From Pelagophyceae sp. CCMP2097 (lineage: Eukaryota; Sar; Pelagophyceae): 17,480 bases of DNA. Both the position numbers and the translations under genes were made by a program. Each line of letters starts with the position of its first letter. Position 1 is the stretch's first letter. Under the pieces are notes generated by a model, which saw nothing but the letters and a program-made list of their open reading frames with translations, ran no database searches and was not told the DNA's origin. Positions 3,352-12,290 of this stretch are shown piece by piece. The stretch spans positions 109,438-126,917 of the forward strand of contig MU657178.1 in the NCBI GenBank assembly GCA_026770575.1, given 5' to 3'.

Positions 3352-4871
3352 ATGGCGACGGTCGCCGCTTTAGAGACGGTGCGGCGCACGAATACGGCGC
3401 ACGCCGCCGCCATCAGGGCCCTCGAGCGGGCCGTTTGTGGCGATATGGTAAGCACCGAGACGTTGAAGCGCCTTCCGATGCAACCTCCTAGGCCCAGCTC
3501 GCGAGCGACCGCCAAACGCTTCAAGACGACCGCGCGGCCTTTGCCAAGGAATCGGAGGACAAGGTCGCGCGCGAAGAAGCTAAGCTCGACGAGAAGCGCG
3601 CTGCCGTCGAGCGCGAACGCACCGAGTGGGACGACGAGCAGGCGCGCATTAAAGCGGCCGCGCCGCCGCCCGACGAGGTGGTCAAGCTCAACGTGGGCGG
3701 CGCGCGCTTCGAGACATCAAGGGCCGTGCTCACGAAGGTCGAGGACTCGATGCTCGGCCGCATGTTCGGCCGCTGCGACGCGATGCTGCAGCCGGACCCT
3801 CTCGATGGAACCATCTTCATCGACCGCGACGGCGCGCGCTTCGGCGTGATCCTCGACTTCCTGCGCGACCTCGACGGCGCGCGCACGCAGAGGGCGATCC
3901 GCGCTCTAGCCGAGGCCGCGCAGGAATGCATGATGAAGGAGCTCGACTTTTTCGGCCTCGAGGTTTCCGTGTTCGGCGCGCGACCATGGATCGAGTTGGC
4001 GTCCTTCCGTGCGGGCCCTTTCATGCAGGAAGAGCGGCTGTATTGCGCAGCCGTGGCTGCTGGAGGGCGTGTGGTGGTGTTTGGCGGTTGGTCGGGGGAG
4101 TCAATCCTAAGATCAACGGAAGTTCTCGACACTCAGAATATGGCCGTTACCGCCGGTCCGGACATGCTCACGGCGCGGTACGGCTGCGCGGCCGTCCAGC
4201 TCGATGGAGATCGGGTGTTGGTGTTGGGTGGTGCAGAATTTTCTGACGGGGCATTAAACACGACGGAAATCTTCCACCTAAAATCCCGCACCTTCACACC
4301 AGGCCCGAACATGCATTCCGCTCGGAATGATTGCGCCGCCGTTTCACTCGACGCTCATAGGATTTTAGTCGTCGGCGGTTCCGACGGTACCTCGAGACTC
4401 TCTACCACCGAAATCTTCAGCCTCGACACCATGGCCTTTTCGCCGGGGCCAGACATGGCCACTCGACGCTGGGGGCTCGCTGCCATTTCGCTCGACGAGC
4501 ACCGCGTTATAATAGCCGGTGGCTCTTCAGGTTCAGGATATTTGACGACGACCGAGGTCCTCGACGTCAGGACGATGACGTTCACGCCCGGCCCGAATAT
4601 GGGCTCGGCACGCTGTTACTGCGCGGCTGTGCAAGTCGATGCTGAACATGTCCTCATCATCGGCGGGCAGGACTCGGCAAACACGCCACTGGCTACGACG
4701 GAGCTCCTCGACCTGGCGACGATGGAGTTCGCGCCCGGGCCGGCCACGCAGGCTGAGCGCAGTGGCTTCGCAGCCGTTCGCATCGACGCTGCGGAGGAAG
4801 AATCGTGGATCCTCGTGCTTGGGGGAGGTTTATCTTCGACGGAGGTGCTCGCATTTCCCAGGCTCGCGTAG
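3352..4871 (+). CDS. BTB/KCTD-kelch repeat protein 1, two exons
   Basis: Exon 1 is 3352-3447 and exon 2 is 3492-4871, joined across a 44-nt phase-0 intron (GTAAGC...CTCCTAG), giving 491 residues. Without the splice the BTB frame has no ATG. Residues 33-90 form a charged coiled coil (DEKRAAVERERTEWDDEQAR). Residues 95-187 are a BTB/T1 domain of the KCTD type (VVKLNVGGARFET, GTIFIDRDG, ILDFLRD). Residues 215-491 hold six kelch blades of about 48 residues, each with C-A-A-V, a V-L-V-x-G-G strand and T-T-E. Such proteins commonly act as cullin-3 adaptors or scaffolds; the substrate is unknown. The C-terminal residues and the TAG stop come from repeat copy D, so the original tail is lost. The paralog is at 10848-12290. 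Confidence 0.85.
3448..3491 (+). other. 44-nt intron of BTB-kelch gene 1
   Basis: The donor is ATG|GTAAGC and the acceptor CTCCTAG|GCC. The length is not a multiple of three, and removing it joins the ATG-containing frame (3352) to the BTB-kelch frame in phase 0. Both frames look coding on their own sides and neither does across the intron. Confidence 0.8.
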
Positions 4872-5001
4872 GGAGCCGATGATGCTTTGACATCGCAGCC
4901 TGAGAAATAGCTCGACCAAGCTTTTCTAATTAACGAGGCTCCCTACTGGAGCCGTAGTAAAAGCAACATAAGCAGCGGCTCCCTACGGGAGCCTGGAAAA
5001 T
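4853..5001 (+). mobile_element. Palindromic-end repeat element, copy D, truncating kelch gene 1
   Basis: It starts ATTTCCCAGGCTCGCGTAGG and ends GGAGCCTGGAAAAT, matching copy A along its length (TGATGCTTTGACATCGCAGCC, GAGGCTCCCTACTGGAGCC, AAAGCAACATAAGCAGCGGC). The first 19 bases lie inside the kelch reading frame, and the TAG of its hairpin loop (CGTAGGG) is the stop codon used. No target-site duplication is evident. Confidence 0.75.
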
Positions 5002-5140
5002 TCATTATCCTGGGTATGCACGGCTCGGTCAAAGAATTATGGGCAGCGGCTCCCTACGGGAGCCTGGGAAGTTACTTATCCTGGGCATGGGCTCCTGGTA
5101 AGGAAACTGTCGAGAGCTCGATAAGAAGGATTTTATTTTA
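5002..5140 (+). repeat. Further palindrome units and second copy of the 70-bp repeat
   Basis: After copy D come TCATTATCCTGGG, another GGCTCCCTACGGGAGCC at about 5049-5065, then TTACTTATCCTGGGCATGGG and the block 5090-5140, which matches 2870-2920 and 5930-5981 closely. The order palindrome, TTACTTATCC, 70-bp repeat is seen again near 5881-5981. Confidence 0.7.
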
Positions 5141-5280
5141 ACACTTGTTTGGCCCGCGATGAAGCGGGCGTTGGTGCGGACGTCCTCGACGCACGCGCGC
5201 GACCGCGCGCATCGTCCGCGCGCATCGCCCGCTCGCCAAGATTTCTCAAACATTTCTCTCTCCTTTAAAATTGCCTTACC

Positions 5281-5754
5281 CTGCGAGCAAGGCTGGTAAA
5301 AACGTAAATTTGCCCCCCCTGGGGCAATTGCCCAGGGAACATGTTTGGAACAACGTTTCCAGGCTATTTCATAAAACATCCAAAAACACGTGAATAAAAC
5401 ATGCCACGGCGACTGCATCCGAGGCGACGTTGATGGGCACGCGCATCTATCCGGTCAACGAGTCGCTCGTGGGCCTCATCCTCGCCGAGGACAACCCGCT
5501 CTACACCTTCCGAGGGTCGTGAGACGGGCTGCCCGTAACTGCCCTGCGGATTGAATCCTAAATATTATCCCAATTTGAGTTATTCATCTCTCCGAGAGGG
5601 CTCTCCAGAGGTCCAGCCGGTGGCCCCGGTGGTGCCACACGCGGGGGGAATAAGAGCACGTGTTTTTTTCCGGTGGTGGGAACAAAACAAACACGTGTTT
5701 TTTAGGGATTTGATCAAAACAACGTTTTACGTTTTTACCAGCCTTGCCTGCGAG
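5281..5754. mobile_element. Inverted-repeat-bounded segment with a captured coding fragment
   Basis: A perfect 22-bp inverted repeat (left 5287-5308, core GGCTGGTAAAAACGTAAA; right 5726-5747) bounds about 470 bp; with gaps the arms reach 5281 and 5754. Internal CACGTGTTTTT-type motifs near 5379, 5657 and 5693 add further inverted symmetry. No transposase is seen. The segment sits between two opposite copies of the palindromic element (D at 4853-5001 and the reversed copy at 6073-6212), so the island is a nest of inverted repeats. It may be a non-autonomous transposon that picked up host sequence. Confidence 0.5.
5394..5522 (+). pseudogene. Coding-like fragment of unknown origin
   Basis: From about 5412 to the TGA at 5520-5522 the sequence switches abruptly to the GC-rich codon use of the host exons and reads MGTRIYPVNESLVGLILAED from an ATG at 5433, followed by NPLYTFRGS and the stop. 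An upstream TGA at 5391-5393 limits the frame to about 42 codons. I do not recognise the family. It resembles the last exon of a gene carried inside the surrounding inverted-repeat segment. It could also be a real small exon with splice sites I cannot identify. Confidence 0.35.
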
Positions 5755-6422: not shown

Positions 6423-9400
6423 TCATGTCGTCGATTCGGCCAAGCCGAGGGCGCGGTTCCGCGGGGCGTCCCAGACGTGGGCGAGCGAGTGGAACTCGCC
6501 CTTTTCGCCGAATTCGTCAAAGCCGCTGGCCACCGCGCACCGCCGCAAGTCGGCGTCGAAGAGCATTCCGACTTCGACGCCGGCCACTGCCGCCTCGACG
6601 GCGGAGATGCGGCAGGGCACTTCTGAGCGGTCGAGGTCCGAAACGAGATCTTGATAATCATTTTGCCAGAGGGGATATTCTAACAAACACCCGAGCTGCG
6701 GCCCGACGTGCACCTCGCGCCAATTTCGAATCGATTCAAGGTGCAAGTCACCGAAGACGACGGATTCGATGTCCGCGCCTTTGAGCAAGAGGAGCGCGGT
6801 CTGAAGGCGGTCGACATAGGATGAGCCTTCGGATTTGTCCAAAGGCACGCCGATGAGGGGCAATCTTAAATGCTCAGCCTGCCGCACCACGTCGGAAATG
6901 GACACGTTCTGGTGCGCCTAAAGTGGGCGTGGAGGCAGATTCATCAGAACCAGATTCATCAGAACGCAGATTCATTAGAACGCAGATTCATTATAACCTT
7001 GCAAAAAGGGCCGTTGAAGAGCCATCCGGACCCTGCAAGGCCTCGTTCGCGGCCACTTGCAAGGCCTCTGCGCGGTAACTTGTAAGACCTCTTCCGAGGG
7101 CCCCATCAAGCCCCCACGCAGGGTTCCTTGCAAGATACCCGTATTCGGGCCCTTGCAGGTTCCCTTGACGGCTCCTCGCCTGGGAGATACCATACGGTTC
7201 GATAGTCCGGGGACCCGCCCGAGGGACCGTCCGAGGGATCGTCCAAGCGACCGTCCGAGCGACTGTCCGAGGACCCGTCCAGGTGATGTCGCAGAGGGGG
7301 CGCAGACGAGGGGGCGGCAGCCGATTGACCGCCCAAGGAACCGTATAGGGGCCGCCGTCAACGCGACGGTCACAGAGGGCCTGTCGAGGGACCGCCCAAG
7401 GAACAGTCCAAAGGAAGTGCCCAAAGGGCCGCCCAAGCGATCGTCCGAGGGACCGTCCAAGGGGCCGTCCAAGCGACCGTCCAAGCGACCGTCCGAGGGA
7501 CCGTCCGAGAGACCATCCAAGCGACCGTCCGTGGGACCGCCCAGAGGGAAAGAGGGGCCGCAGTCGAGGAGACGGCAGCCGAGCGACCTCCCAAGGAACT
7601 GTCCGAGGGACCCTACACGGGGCTGCCGCAAAGGGACCGTCGAGGGACCGTCCAAGGGACCGTCAAAGGGATCGTCCACGGAACCGTCGCAGAGGGACTC
7701 AGTCGGACCGCCCAATGAACCGCCCAAGGAACAGTCCAAACATGGACCAAAGGAAGTGTCCAAAGGACCGCCAAAGGGACCGTCCGAAAGATCGTTCGAG
7801 GGACCATCCAAACGACCGTCCGAGGGACCGTCCACGGGACTGTCGCAGAGGGCCCGTCTCCGGGCCCGTCGAGAGATAGCTCAAGGGACCGTCAAAGGAA
7901 CTGTAAAAAAAGACTGTCTTAAGGCCCGCCCAAGGGACTGTCGCAAGGTCCGCCCGCGGGTCCGTCCGCGGGACGTCGCAGAGGGGCCGCAGTCGAGCGG
8001 ACGTCCAAACGACCGTCCAATGGACCGTCCACGGGACCGTCGCATTGGGACCGTCGAGGGACCATCGAGGGACCCTCCAAGGGACCCTCCAAGGGAACTG
8101 TCCAAAGGAACTGCCCAAAGGAACTGTCCAAAGGAACTGTCCAAAGGAACTGTCCAAAGGACCGCCCGAGGGGTCGTCCGAGGAACCGTCGAGGGACTGC
8201 CCGAGGGACTGTCCGAGGGACCGTCCGAGGGACCGTCCAAGCGACTGTACGAGCGACCGTCCGAGGACCCGTCCAGGGGACTTAAAGGGGCTGCAGTCGA
8301 GGGACCGGCAGCCGAGTGACCGTCCAAGGGACCGTCGAGAAACAGCCGTCAAAGCGACCGTCGCAGAGGGCCCGCCGAGAGACCATCCAAGGAGCTGTCC
8401 AAAGGAACTGTCCAGACGACCAAGCCCGAGCGACCGTCCGAGGGACCGTCCGAGCCCTCCAGGGGCCATCGTCGCGGCGCCGTTTCGAATGGCCGTCAAA
8501 AGGAGCCGTCTCGAGGGGCGCAGCATCATCCGAGCCTTGCAAAGCGTCTTCCCGGGCTCTAACTCTGCTTTTCCAGGTGGTGACTCTGTCTTCCCAGGTG
8601 GTATCTGCCCGTCCAATCCCGGCGCTGCGTCAAATCTCGGCGCTGCTTTGTACGACGTTTCGCGTCGCCGCGTCAAACGTCGTGAGGAGGATGATCCGGT
8701 CGATGGATGCGGATTTTACGGTTTGGCGTAGTGCCAAGAACGAGTCCTTCCCTCCGCTCCAAGAAACCACCTTCACCCCGACCGCCCCACCGTCGACCGC
8801 TCGCGGTGGCCAGACCGCGGGTTTTACAAGCCACGCCGGCTGCTTGATGTTTGCGGCCTTGTCTTTGACGTTGGCGTGGTCGTACGGGCCTAGGAGGCGT
8901 GGGGCCTTCTGGCTCCGCCCGTCGATCGGCGCCACGCAGGCGCCTCGTCCAAGCGACGCAAGCCCCTGGCCCGAGCGCGGATGTCGACGGAGTCTCTATG
9001 GTACCGTCCCCGCTGGCGTCGACGGGGCATCTGTGACGCCGCCCCGCTGGCGCCGCTCTCTGCTGCGACGTTTCGGGTTTCCTGACGTTTCGGATTTTCT
9101 TACCGGCGCCACGCAGGAACCGCACAGTGCCGGCAGCCGCTGCCGCAGCAGTGGCCGCGCCGCAGCGCCGCCAACGACGTGAAGACCTAGGGTGGTGCGT
9201 GGTTGGCCTTTTTGTGCCGACGGAGCATCATATTGAGAAGACGCTCCCCTTGCCAATCGTTCCCCGACCCTTTGCAGGCGCGGCTACGCGCCGTGTAGCC
9301 CGTTTCCGGGTCGTCGTAGGTCAGCCGCTTTTCGGAAACGGCGGCGGCGTGCGCGGCGGCCCAGCCGTTGGGAGCTTCGGCGAAGTCTTCAATGTCGACG

Positions 9401-10485
9401 CCGCACGAACCGTAATGAGGCGCCTCAGAGACGCTTTGAACGTCCGTCGTCGTCGCCGTCTTCGTCGTCATCGCCGCTGCCGCGTCAAAAAGGTCCACGC
9501 GCCGCCACGCCGTCGACCGCCCGTCAGCAGATGCAGGCATAAAGTCCAGCGAATCCAACCTCTCCGCGACACCCGCGTCGTCGTCAAACGCGCACCGCGC
9601 GAGCACGGCGGCGCCGATTGATACGGCCTGAGACGGGCGGGCGAAGTATCTGTCCGCATCCACGGCGTACACGCGCGGTGGTGTATACGGGAAGAGGCTC
9701 AAGAGCTCCTTCGAATGCAATTTGGCGTCTTTCACGTTCCTCTCTAGCCCAAAGCCGCAGCAGGCGATGATGACGACGTCTGGCTTGAGGGAAGCGAGGT
9801 CGGGCCAGGCGACGCCGATGGATTTCGCGCCTGGGGCATTCCTCGATGGAAAACACCCTGCCGCCTGGATTTGGCAAGGCACCCAGTGCCCCCCATCAAA
9901 CGCCGGCTGCAGCCACTCGAGCAATAGCACGGACTTTTGGTTCGCGGTGACGGCGGCGGAAACGCGTCGTAAACGGTCCTCGCATTCCCGCTTCAATAAA
10001 AGCCCGCGCTCGTGCACACCACAAACCTCCGCTATAAGTGAGATCGTCGCAAATACGTCTGCGGCCGTGTGTGGCTCGAGGTTGATGATCTTGGTCGTAT
10101 TGCCGCTCAAGTCGACGAGGCCGAGATCCGAGACGTCCTTTGCTGAGATCGCACAGACGTCGCATAAACCCTGCGTAAGGACAACCGTCGGATGCAACCG
10201 CTTCAAAGCGGCGACGTCGACGGCGTAGAGCGAGAGCTTTGAAGAAACGGAAGCTTTTACGGCAGAGTCGATGTCACTTTGGGATAATGACATTTCTAAA
10301 GACGTGGATGTCACCCGCTCTGCGACCTTCAACACCTCCGCCATACCCTTGGCGTCGGGGCAGACGTCGCACTCATGCGTCACGCCGACGATGTAGGCGG
10401 AGAGGCATAGGCCGCCGAGGATTTCCGTTGCACTCGGGAGGAGCGAAACGATGCGCAGCCCGCCAGGCGCGGCGGGGGTCGCCAT
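6423..10485 (-). CDS. BtuF-like corrinoid-binding / DUF5522 / DUF71 PP-loop ATPase fusion, four exons
   Basis: Exons are 10485-9292, 9186-9126, 8889-8654 and 6917-6423, giving 661 residues. Residues 10-310 are a BtuF/TroA-type binding domain (RIVSLLPSATEI, VTHECD 35-40, TQGLCDVCA 104-112, GGHWVP 198-203, YFARP 280-284). Residues 387-439 carry YDDPETGYT, then VFTSLAALRRGHCCGSGCRH and CPYDHANVKDKAANIKQPAWL, a DUF5522-type Cys motif that becomes continuous only after splicing. Residues 457-661 are a DUF71/COG2102 ATPase (SGGKDS PP-loop 463-468, LTTFDA, AHQNVSISDVVRQA, FGDLHLE 552-558, GEFHS 637-641). The ATG at 10485 is the first in frame. No signal peptide is seen, so a cytosolic site is likely. 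The domain set points to cobalamin salvage rather than diphthamide synthesis (inference). Confidence 0.82.
6936..6998. repeat. Four-copy tandem repeat of about 16 bp beside the splice acceptor
   Basis: Units are CAGATTCATCAGAAC, CAGATTCATCAGAACG, CAGATTCATTAGAACG and CAGATTCATTATAACC. The array ends 18 bp from the intron 3 acceptor. On the sense strand of the gene it would read GTTCTGATGAATCTG. Confidence 0.85.
7010..7170. repeat. Degenerate (C)TTGCAAGGCCTC repeat
   Basis: Imperfect units around TGCAAGGCCTC, TGCAAGGCCTC, TGTAAGACCTC, CTTGCAAGATACC and CTTGCAGGTTCCC occur at irregular spacing of 25-35 bp. They form a transition between the 16-bp array and the minisatellite. Confidence 0.5.
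7211..8452. repeat. 12-bp minisatellite, about 1.2 kb
   Basis: The unit is (A/G)AGGGACCGTCC(A/G)-like, with variants such as AAGCGACCGTCC, GAGGGACTGTCC and AAAGGAACTGTCC. Because 12 is a multiple of three and the unit has no stops, long open frames appear on both strands (420 codons on plus, 325 on minus). They are Arg/Pro/Gly/Ser-rich repeats and not genes. A higher-order unit is visible: a GCAGTCGAG...GGCAGCCGA.. block recurs near 7300, 7560, 7990 and 8290, so segments of a few hundred bp were duplicated after the 12-bp array formed. Confidence 0.9.
8890..9125 (-). other. 236-nt intron 2 of the fusion gene
   Basis: The donor is CAC T|GTGCGG and the acceptor CCTCCTAG|GC. It is a phase-1 intron that splits the last Cys codon of the C-R-H-C motif and restores C-R-H-C-P-Y. 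The acceptor-side frame has no ATG between an upstream TAG (near 9000) and the PP-loop, which rules out a separate gene starting here in this frame. Confidence 0.75.
9187..9291 (-). other. 105-nt intron 1 of the fusion gene, apparently GC-AG
   Basis: To keep the GYT|VFT junction of the DUF5522 motif, the intron must begin GCGCGTAGCC and end CACCCTAG. Its length is a multiple of three, and the acceptor TAG is also the in-frame stop of the unspliced frame, so a transcript that keeps the intron would encode a 432-residue protein of the BtuF domain only. No GT donor gives the right phase. A one-base sequence error near the donor is the alternative. Confidence 0.6.
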
Positions 10486-10847
10486 TGACCGGGCGCGGCG
10501 CCGGGGCGCTGGAGCCGATTGGGGCCGGCTGGCGGTCGCAGCTGGCGGGGGAAGGCGCAGGCGGTGCACTCGGGCAGCCCTGGCCGTGCAGGGCTCTCCG
10601 ACACGGACCGTCGAGTCACGAGCAGGATATATCGCTAAATGAACGGCTCGCTAAAAGACGGAGGCGCGCCGCGCGCGCGATGGCGGCGATGCATACAGGA
10701 ATTCCTATTGAACACGGCACTCCGTGAGTCTCCGCCGCCACCCTCGACGTCCGCGCACGACGGGACGGTGCTTCGAGGGCGCGCGCGCCTCCTCCCTCGA
10801 GGACGGCCCGGGCCCAGCCCGCACTCAAAAACGACGCAAACGAGTCG
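10486..10847. other. Divergent intergenic region between the fusion gene and BTB-kelch gene 2
   Basis: These 362 bp separate a minus-strand start at 10485 from a plus-strand start at 10848, so both promoters should lie here. There is a short ATG frame at 10680 followed by a strong donor-like GTGAGT at 10724, and the kelch 2 frame stays open upstream of 10848 to beyond 10779. An extra 5' exon for kelch 2 is therefore possible but unproven. No TATA-like element stands out. Confidence 0.4.
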
Positions 10848-12290
10848 ATGAGCGAACTCTCGCGCGACGACGCCGCGCTCAAACGCAGACGCGCGTCGGC
10901 GGGGCGCGACGGCGCCGCGGCGGACGACGACGACGTGCGCTCGAGGGCATCATCGACGCCCGACGGCGTCGTCAAGCTCAACGTGGGCGGCGCGCGCTTC
11001 GAAACAACAAGGGCCGTGCTGACAAAGGTCGAGGACTCGATGCTCGGGCGCATGTTCGGCCGCTGCGACGCGATGTTGCAGGCGGACCCTTCAGATGGAT
11101 CAATCTTCATCGACCGCGATGGCGAGTGCTTCCGACTGATCCTCGACTTCCTCCGCGGCGACCCTCCCGAGGGCCCGGGCATGCAGAGGATGATTCGCGC
11201 GTTACCCGAGGCCACGCAGGACGCGCTGGTCCAGGAGCTGGACTACTTAGGGCCTCTTTAGGGCCGTCTTCGGCGCGCGGCTGTGGACCGACTTCGCGGC
11301 GTTCCGGCCGGGGCCGGAGATGGGCTCCGAATCTGACGAATTCTTCGGTTGCGCTGCCGTGCTTGCCGGCGGGCGCGTCATCGTGGTCGGTGGCTGGTGC
11401 CATGATGCTTGTGCCGCGACGGGAGTCATCGACGCGCAGAAGATGGCCTTGACGCGTGGGCCGGACCTGCTGACGGGACGGGCAGGCTGCGCGGCCATCT
11501 TGCTCGACGCGGACCGCGTGCTCGTGGTGGGTGGAACGGACGACAATGGTTATGCTTTAAAGACGACTGAGATCTTGCACCTCTCGACGCGCACGTTCGC
11601 GCCAGGATCGGACATGCTCACGGCGCGTGATTGCTGTGCTGCGGTCGCACTCGACGCTCGCAGGATCCTCGTCGTCGGCGGCTCCTCTAGCGTGACTCAA
11701 CTGTCGACTACCGAGATTTTCAGCCTCGACACGATGGCCTTTGCGCCGGGGCCCGCCATGGCCGCTCCGGGCGAAAGCTGCGCGGCCGTCGCGCTCGACA
11801 ATCATCGCGTCATGGTGGCTGGTGGCCGTTCAGTTTCAGACAGTTTGATCACAACGGAGGTCCTCGACGTCCGGACAATGGCGTTCACGCCCGGCCCGTC
11901 GATGGGCTCGGGACGCTGTTACTGCGCGGCCGTGCCCGTCGACGCTCAGCACGTCCTCGTCATCGCCGGGGGGGATTTCAAGCGTCGCCGGTGCCGACGA
12001 CGGAGCTCCTCGACCTGGCGTCAATGGAGTTTGAGCCCGGGCCGGCCATGCAGACTGGGCGCTGTGGTTGTGCAGCGGCACGGCTCGACGTGTCGGCGGG
12101 ACGGCCCCGGATCCTGGTGCTGGGTGGCAACGCCGTTGCCGCACCGGTGCTCCACGACGACTCGCAGCCCGATTACTCGGACTCGGACGATTACGACGAA
12201 GACAATGTCGATTGCATCTTCTTGACGATGGCCGAGGTGCTCGCCGTCGTCGTCGACGACGACGACAACAACGACGATGAGCACGAATGA
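10848..12290 (+). pseudogene. BTB/KCTD-kelch repeat protein 2, with two frame breaks
   Basis: Paralog of 3352-4871 in the same orientation; the BTB segment (VVKLNVGGARFETTRAVLTK) is nearly identical. The frame opens at 10848 (MSELSRDDAALKRRR) and stops at TAG 11259-11261 in a CTTTAGG context. One base fewer in the T run would continue into AVFGARLW, exactly where the paralog reads SVFGARPW. Six kelch blades follow in the next frame until a G7 run at 11968-11974, after which the blade TTELLDLASMEFEPGP and an acidic tail (SDSDDYDEDN, then DDDDNNDDEHE) are back in the first frame, ending at TGA 12288-12290. Both breaks are at homopolymers, so either sequencing error or recent decay is possible. 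If intact it would be about 480 residues, and its tail shows what gene 1 lost. Confidence 0.8.

Follow-up and report, generated by a model that had tools for sequence, protein, structure and literature searches.

A four-exon gene of Pelagophyceae sp. CCMP2097 predicted to fuse BtuF-like, DUF5522 and DUF71 domains in one protein with a probable role in vitamin B12 handling

On the minus strand of a 17,480-nucleotide stretch of DNA from the alga Pelagophyceae sp. CCMP2097 (assembly GCA_026770575.1, contig MU657178.1, positions 109,438 to 126,917; hereafter the window), we find four exons between window positions 6423 and 10485 that are predicted to encode a single 661-residue protein, in which a BtuF-like domain, a DUF5522 domain and a DUF71 PP-loop ATPase domain follow one another. 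We put the probability at about 85% that this is one protein with a role in vitamin B12 (corrinoid) handling. That such handling would take place inside the cell is very probable because bacterial relatives of the individual parts lie in gene clusters under vitamin B12 control.

Exon 1 (9292..10485) runs from the ATG through the BtuF-like domain and a linker into the beginning of DUF5522 (residues 1-398), in agreement with the deposited protein P0001 from the same strain. It is followed by intron 1 (9187..9291, GC-AG, 105 nucleotides) and exon 2 (9126..9186), which encodes the central DUF5522 sequence VFT...CCGSGCRH together with the first base of the following Cys codon. Intron 2 (8890..9125, GT-AG, 236 nucleotides, phase 1) precedes exon 3 (8654..8889), which holds the end of DUF5522 (to about 8870) and the start of DUF71 with its SGGKDS PP-loop (from about 8770); the protein joins across introns 1 and 2 are identical in P0001. 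Intron 3 (6918..8653, GT-AG, 1736 nucleotides) consists mostly of tandem repeat and is unrecognised in the deposited model, while exon 4 (6423..6917) supplies the remaining DUF71 sequence (GDLHLE, GEKGEFH) and the stop codon. All four exons join in phase and free of stops, giving 1986 nucleotides, or 661 codons plus the stop, and the intron limits given in the initial annotation (9291/9187, 9125/8890 and 8653/6918) are exactly the first and last intron bases. Its proposal of one spliced gene making one polypeptide is supported by these phases and by a homolog search which, scoring only the 7995 candidates that shared most words with the query, returned at least 467 proteins of similar length (E <= 0.001).

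For the third join, all in-frame, stop-free GT/GC...AG joins within 60 nucleotides on either side (n = 26) were scored against a profile built from 119 homologs. The join as first proposed came out on top with 804.6 bits, followed by a runner-up at 794.7, and by the same profile the deposited 504-residue form reaches 574.2 bits and exon 4 on its own 211.2. Since the sole Met of exon 4 is residue 118 of its 164, an independent gene in this exon is implausible. Compared with the homologs, exon 4 has a median identity of 0.49, within the 0.47-0.51 of the equivalent stretch in nine reference homologs, and the DUF71 stretch of exon 3 has one of 0.55, slightly below the 0.57-0.62 of the references. 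The deposited P0001 (window 8631-10485; 99% identical across 76% of the query) uses the same first two joins, then runs into intron 3 and is truncated inside DUF71; full-length proteins of the same architecture, derived from transcripts, are present in other eukaryotes (P0040, P0043, P0105). The repeat in intron 3 is made of tandem units of about 12 bp of the GGACGGTCC type, relatives of which are scattered genome-wide (at least 186 genome matches, with 40 of 545 candidates scored).

A Pfam profile search of the 661-residue protein, evaluated against gathering cut-offs, placed DUF5522 (PF17653) at residues 378-425 (75.9 bits, cut-off 25, profile positions 1-48 of 48) and DUF71 (PF01902) at residues 459-649 (55.9 bits, cut-off 23.2); the exon 2 stretch was the sole PF17653 match found in a search of the genome. 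The BtuF-like domain, of the PF01497 fold (9526..10464, minus strand, residues about 8-320), scores below its Pfam cut-off, and its assignment therefore draws on full-length homologs and on the fold of a 637-residue relative, P0003. PF01497 is annotated for most of the 120 homologs listed (the best 120 of 467), and its cut-off is passed in the bacterial relatives scanned. Fold comparison of P0003 recovered the two-lobed BtuF type; across the two models compared, fold matches cover residues 8-327 of the first and 80-262 of the second, DUF5522 lying outside them. As judged by eye, the domain begins about ten residues after the Met and is probably unsecreted, and the fusion protein as a whole is probably cytosolic.

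The order BtuF-DUF5522-DUF71 recurs in all 119 relatives (the best 120 of 467, minus P0001), although the part profiles were built from the same 119 rows and the count thus speaks for the order and not for independence. Diatoms (Cyclotella, Stephanocyclus, Thalassiosira and probably Detonula, its name being cut off) are among the named sources of these best 120, as are a green alga (Chlamydomonas sp. UWO 241), a red alga (Rhodosorus marinus) and bacteria of the Polyangiaceae, so that the fusion is not restricted to algae. One further homolog, CFRG7444T1, carries an identifier that we take to be of the ichthyosporean Creolimax, judging by its prefix. A search with a green-algal query gave 74 hits, with no land plant among the names given, most hits being nameless. 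Of 102 near-invariant columns, those where one residue accounts for at least 97% of the homologs, the window protein matches 101. Eleven motif patterns applied to the 119 homologs matched 118, 115, 115, 110, 109, 101, 95, 80, 51, 39 and 20 of them: the GDLHL type is found in 118, the HEC type of the BtuF part in 115 and the CCGxGCRHC type of DUF5522 in 109. The PP-loop matched only 51 with an over-strict pattern, and all 119 as S-x-GKD; alignments of 35 and of 96 sequences show no variation in its columns. One 911-residue eukprot protein, P0131, combines PF01266 and methyltransferase Pfam domains with DUF71 and DUF5522, and is possibly a mis-joined model.

DUF71 has been divided into a Dph6 group with an EGGE/DxE motif and a DUF71-B12 group with ENGEF/YH, encoded beside B12 transport genes and described as bacterial apart from a few extra archaeal copies (PMC3541065). 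The window protein carries EKGEFH and no EGGE/DxE, the B12-type motif GExGE[FYL]H is present in 115 of the 119 homologs, and against TIGR03679, the Dph6 equivalog, the window protein scores 39.1 bits at a cut-off of 197.3. We inferred a DUF71 tree of 50 rows, rooted on Dph6, in which a branch with 100/100 support parts nine Dph6-type rows (seven archaeal-named and two unnamed, with no eukaryote) from the 41 others, the window sequence lying outside Dph6. The 18 fusion rows stand together on one side of a branch relative to Dph6, and 23 other bacterial rows fall into neither the fusion nor the Dph6 group. The initial annotation had placed the domain in the B12 rather than the Dph6 branch of DUF71, and motif, tree and the cobalamin riboswitches ahead of bacterial relatives (below) all favor that placement; a DUF71 domain of B12 type, not of Dph6 type, is thus supported by sequence comparison. 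In the same tree the Polyangiaceae fusions P0018 and L013, together with the unnamed P0049 and P0009, branch among fusions that include eukaryotic ones (87/88), a placement that hints at a transfer of the gene from bacteria to eukaryotes or the reverse.

Bacterial counterparts were drawn from a scan of genome contigs that confirmed at least 303 loci, of which the best 79 were analyzed; as these were ranked by their match to the full-length query, the sizes of the classes are not natural frequencies. By part profiles, one locus is a full fusion (L013), 15 carry BtuF-like and DUF71 sequences on the same strand within 600 nucleotides, one has both but apart (L053), 36 have DUF5522-DUF71 without BtuF, five DUF71 alone, three BtuF-DUF5522, three BtuF alone, and 15 DUF5522 alone or no module hit. 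BtuF comes first in 12 of the adjacent pairs and DUF71 in three, and in L034 DUF5522 follows DUF71. For every pair of parts there is thus some case of fusion or adjacency, and this links all three functionally.

Rfam scans of 69 of these loci (the other ten all belong to the class with DUF5522 alone or no hit) detected a cobalamin riboswitch in nine: six of the 15 adjacent-pair loci (L021, L025, L037, L042, L063, L069), L053 with its two parts apart, L074 with BtuF alone and L085 with DUF71 alone; none was detected in the three BtuF-DUF5522 loci. The adjacent pairs and the 36 DUF5522-DUF71 loci lacking BtuF differ in this respect (6 of 15 against 0 of 36, Fisher p = 0.0003), with the caveat that the lineages are related. 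At L021 the riboswitch (7294-7463) is followed by genes for DUF6580 (7502), the BtuF-like protein (7998) and DUF5522-DUF71 (8719), an order shared by L025, L037, L042 and L069; in L063 the riboswitch stands ahead of DUF71 and then BtuF-DUF5522. The most extensive arrangement is L053:2226-11108, where a single riboswitch is followed on the same strand by genes for a TonB receptor, DUF6580, a leaderless BtuF-like protein, a second BtuF-like protein with a signal-like start, a CobQ/CbiP-like amidotransferase, a FecCD permease, an ABC ATPase and DUF5522-DUF71. Against the family profile the leaderless protein scores 286 bits and the signal-bearing one 18 bits, which indicates that they represent different subfamilies within one operon. 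DUF5522 is thereby linked to B12-controlled operons, and DUF6580 is brought in as a riboswitch-controlled neighbor.

Pfam searches covered the neighboring genes of L013, L014, L021, L037, L053, L058, L063 and L085. The DUF6580 membrane protein occurs in nine loci, in three by Pfam (L021:7502-8029, L053:4630-5154, L085:5238-5765) and in six by similarity (L025, L037, L042, L062, L069, L081); in six of the nine the riboswitch lies ahead of DUF6580 as well as of both modules, BtuF and DUF71, and the protein may be a component of a B12 transporter. In the betaproteobacterial locus L058:7055-9379 the gene for METE, the B12-independent methionine synthase, adjoins an unsecreted-looking BtuF-like gene. 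Other recurring neighbor groups in the bacterial loci look mostly antisense or lineage-specific.

The genome of the host alga encodes the B12-dependent enzymes METH and MCM. Six-frame genome searches, from which intron-split genes can escape, gave no match for the METE domains, none for CobS, CobT or CbiB (controls matching in 10, 7 and 8 of 14 genomes) and none for FecCD (PF01032; control 13 of 14); PMC11439496 likewise reports no METE in this strain. The same kind of search with PF01902 missed the DUF71 exons of the window itself, so the absences of CobS, CobT, CbiB, METE and FecCD are weak, and a search for MMACHC matched none of the control genomes. With METH and MCM present and METE not found, the alga is predicted to be a B12 auxotroph.

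From these data we propose that the fusion protein would act on corrinoids after their uptake. The BtuF-like domain may clamp the corrinoid, the PP-loop domain would spend ATP on activating a carboxylate or amide on it, in the way that Dph6 treats its substrate, and the Cys motif of DUF5522, situated between the other two parts, could hold a metal or cluster or contact the cobalt. Among the chemistries open to such a protein, an ATP-dependent reaction of the amide-bond type at a corrinoid side chain is tentatively ranked as the most likely; removal of the lower ligand appears less likely, and processing of the upper ligand less likely again. A more specific and rather speculative version is a B12 repair enzyme, in which the BtuF-like domain would hold a corrinoid lacking a side-chain amide and the PP-loop domain, with Dph6-like chemistry on a carboxylate and ammonia, would restore that amide using ATP. 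If true, this would explain why organisms that seem to lack both synthesis and remodelling of B12 retain the protein, as well as its position beside uptake genes and, in L053, beside the gene for a CobQ/CbiP-like corrin amidase.

Several observations weigh against a single B12-handling protein of this kind. The deposited model P0001 stops ahead of exon 4, and in this alga the third join is supported through homology alone. The initial annotation's three-domain claim holds under Pfam for DUF5522 and DUF71 and fails for the BtuF-like part, where PF01497 scores 14.2 bits against a cut-off of 27.5; the median identity of this part to its family is 0.44, compared with 0.46-0.49 in the nine reference homologs. 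Fold comparison scores heme and siderophore binders equal to BtuF, so that B12 as the ligand is assigned from context alone. Bearing on the probable cytosolic location, the N-terminal motif could be recognized in 103 of 120 proteins, and in 16 of these it lies more than 40 residues in. Cobalamin riboswitches are missing by Rfam from all 36 DUF5522-DUF71 loci without BtuF, from nine of the 15 adjacent-pair loci and from L013, the sole full bacterial fusion fetched, and the seven loci that combine both parts with a riboswitch belong to few lineages (Erythrobacter relatives, Pseudomonadales, Planctomycetales and one unplaced proteobacterium). Forcing the window sequence together with Dph6 costs 23 log units and is not rejected at 0.05 by the approximately unbiased (AU) test (p = 0.066; nor was holding eight other B12-type rows together, p = 0.44), so that of the tree check foreseen to tell B12 from Dph6 type the position outside the Dph6 clade stands and the test of the alternative is borderline. 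As to mechanism, an amidation like that of Dph6 would suit the fold, but PMC3541065 reads the change from Glu to His in the motif as indicating a reaction unlike that of Dph6.

As a rival reading, the protein might be the missing algal cobamide-remodelling enzyme, with DUF71-B12 replacing CbiZ and cutting the nucleotide loop off pseudocobalamin. Such hydrolysis needs no ATP, which counts against it, as do, weakly given the escape of intron-split genes, the unmatched CobS, CobT and CbiB. Moreover, the remodeller C. reinhardtii is absent from the names in the green-query search (74 proteins, most of them nameless). The attraction lies in the fact that the algal remodelling enzyme is unknown (PMC4850488, PMC7733943), being "yet to be discovered" according to PMC7733943, and in the prediction, from anticorrelation with CbiZ, that DUF71-B12 plays the CbiZ role in bacteria (PMC3541065). 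In the algal genomes analyzed by PMC4850488 there is no cbiZ or cbiB, and the pelagophyte Aureococcus, with hits for CobT and CobC and not for CobS, uses pseudocobalamin with very high 5,6-dimethylbenzimidazole; by the same paper, however, Thalassiosira pseudonana is apparently no remodeller, yet the fusion occurs in Thalassiosira species (T. pseudonana itself is not among the listed hits). On balance we regard remodelling as possible but unlikely. Slightly less likely still is a chaperone for B12 processing and hand-over, which would remove the upper ligand and deliver the cofactor to METH and MCM, the Cys motif touching cobalt: it would suit a host that has both enzymes and in which genes for the lower loop were not found (a weak absence), together with the widespread CCGxGCRHC-type and HEC-type motifs, but it leaves the PP-loop, kept in every homolog, unexplained.

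The remaining alternatives are markedly less probable. That there are two genes, or one recently broken by the intron 3 repeat, with the 504-residue protein as the product and exon 4 left over as a relic, is improbable: the deposited model does end within intron 3, which is repeat-filled and far longer than introns 1 and 2, but exon 4 is open, shows the same degree of conservation as its counterparts elsewhere, continues the frame at the top-scoring site and lacks a start codon until residue 118, and 101 of the 102 near-invariant columns are kept over the whole protein. Handling of heme or an iron chelate instead of B12 would fit the equal fold matches of the N-terminal domain to heme and siderophore binding proteins; it is highly improbable in view of the bacterial cobalamin riboswitches, the TonB, FecCD and CobQ-like neighbors, the DUF71-B12 motif and the gene-cluster survey of PMC3541065. 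Least credible of all is a second Dph6 for diphthamide synthesis, in favor of which the Pfam title of PF01902 (Diphthamide synthase) and the borderline AU test can be cited; here EKGEFH stands in place of EGGExE, TIGR03679 is far below its cut-off and the sequence lies outside the Dph6 clade, and on these three grounds a Dph6 function was rejected, with the AU result (p = 0.066) as a caveat. Relatives also occur in bacteria, which make no diphthamide (PMC3541065), and the genome has a separate Dph6-like gene with a PF01902 piece and a GEGGEYESL motif in L011 (G000 C6:694000-703500, about 3400-5640, minus strand); frames near that gene look RidA-like when read by eye.

Compared with known systems, the predicted protein shares with the DUF71-B12 subgroup the SGGKDS PP-loop, the E-x-G-E-F-H motif and B12-transport neighbors, the last in bacterial relatives only, and differs in the fusion of DUF71 to an unsecreted-looking BtuF-like domain and DUF5522, and in its occurrence in eukaryotic algae. 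Unlike BtuF, the periplasmic B12-binding protein, its binding domain has no N-terminal extension and is joined to enzyme domains, and the genome of the alga gave no match to a FecCD permease, within the limits of the six-frame search. Dph6, the diphthine-ammonia ligase, provides the closest solved structures for the DUF71 domain (PF0828, PH1257) and differs in signature motif, tree position and domain partners. The algal protein CBA1 has also been compared structurally with BtuF; it is described as associated with membranes and the endoplasmic reticulum and as required for uptake (PMC10828217, in whose main text, as far as available, DUF71 is not mentioned), and the window protein differs in carrying an ATPase domain. 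CbiZ and CbiR may be functional analogs in corrinoid salvage and are different enzymes by their descriptions in PMC3541065 and PMC7733943.

We found no description of a BtuF-like/DUF5522/DUF71 fusion in titles and abstract openings of the papers listed from the literature outside subscription journals and preprints, nor were the names DUF5522 and DUF6580 met there. DUF71-B12, whose function is given as unknown in PMC5041015, has since 2012 been a B12 protein without an assigned reaction (PMC3541065), and for algae the steps of B12 use inside the cell, including the remodelling enzyme, are described as open (PMC4850488, PMC7733943). Diatoms and other algae, with their conserved and probably cytosolic fusion of this ATPase to a B12-binder-like domain, offer a single protein on which these steps can be tested.

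Two similar open regions flank the gene on the plus strand of the window (3492-4871 and 10728-12225); read by eye, they combine a BTB/potassium-channel-tetramerisation part with Kelch-like repeats.

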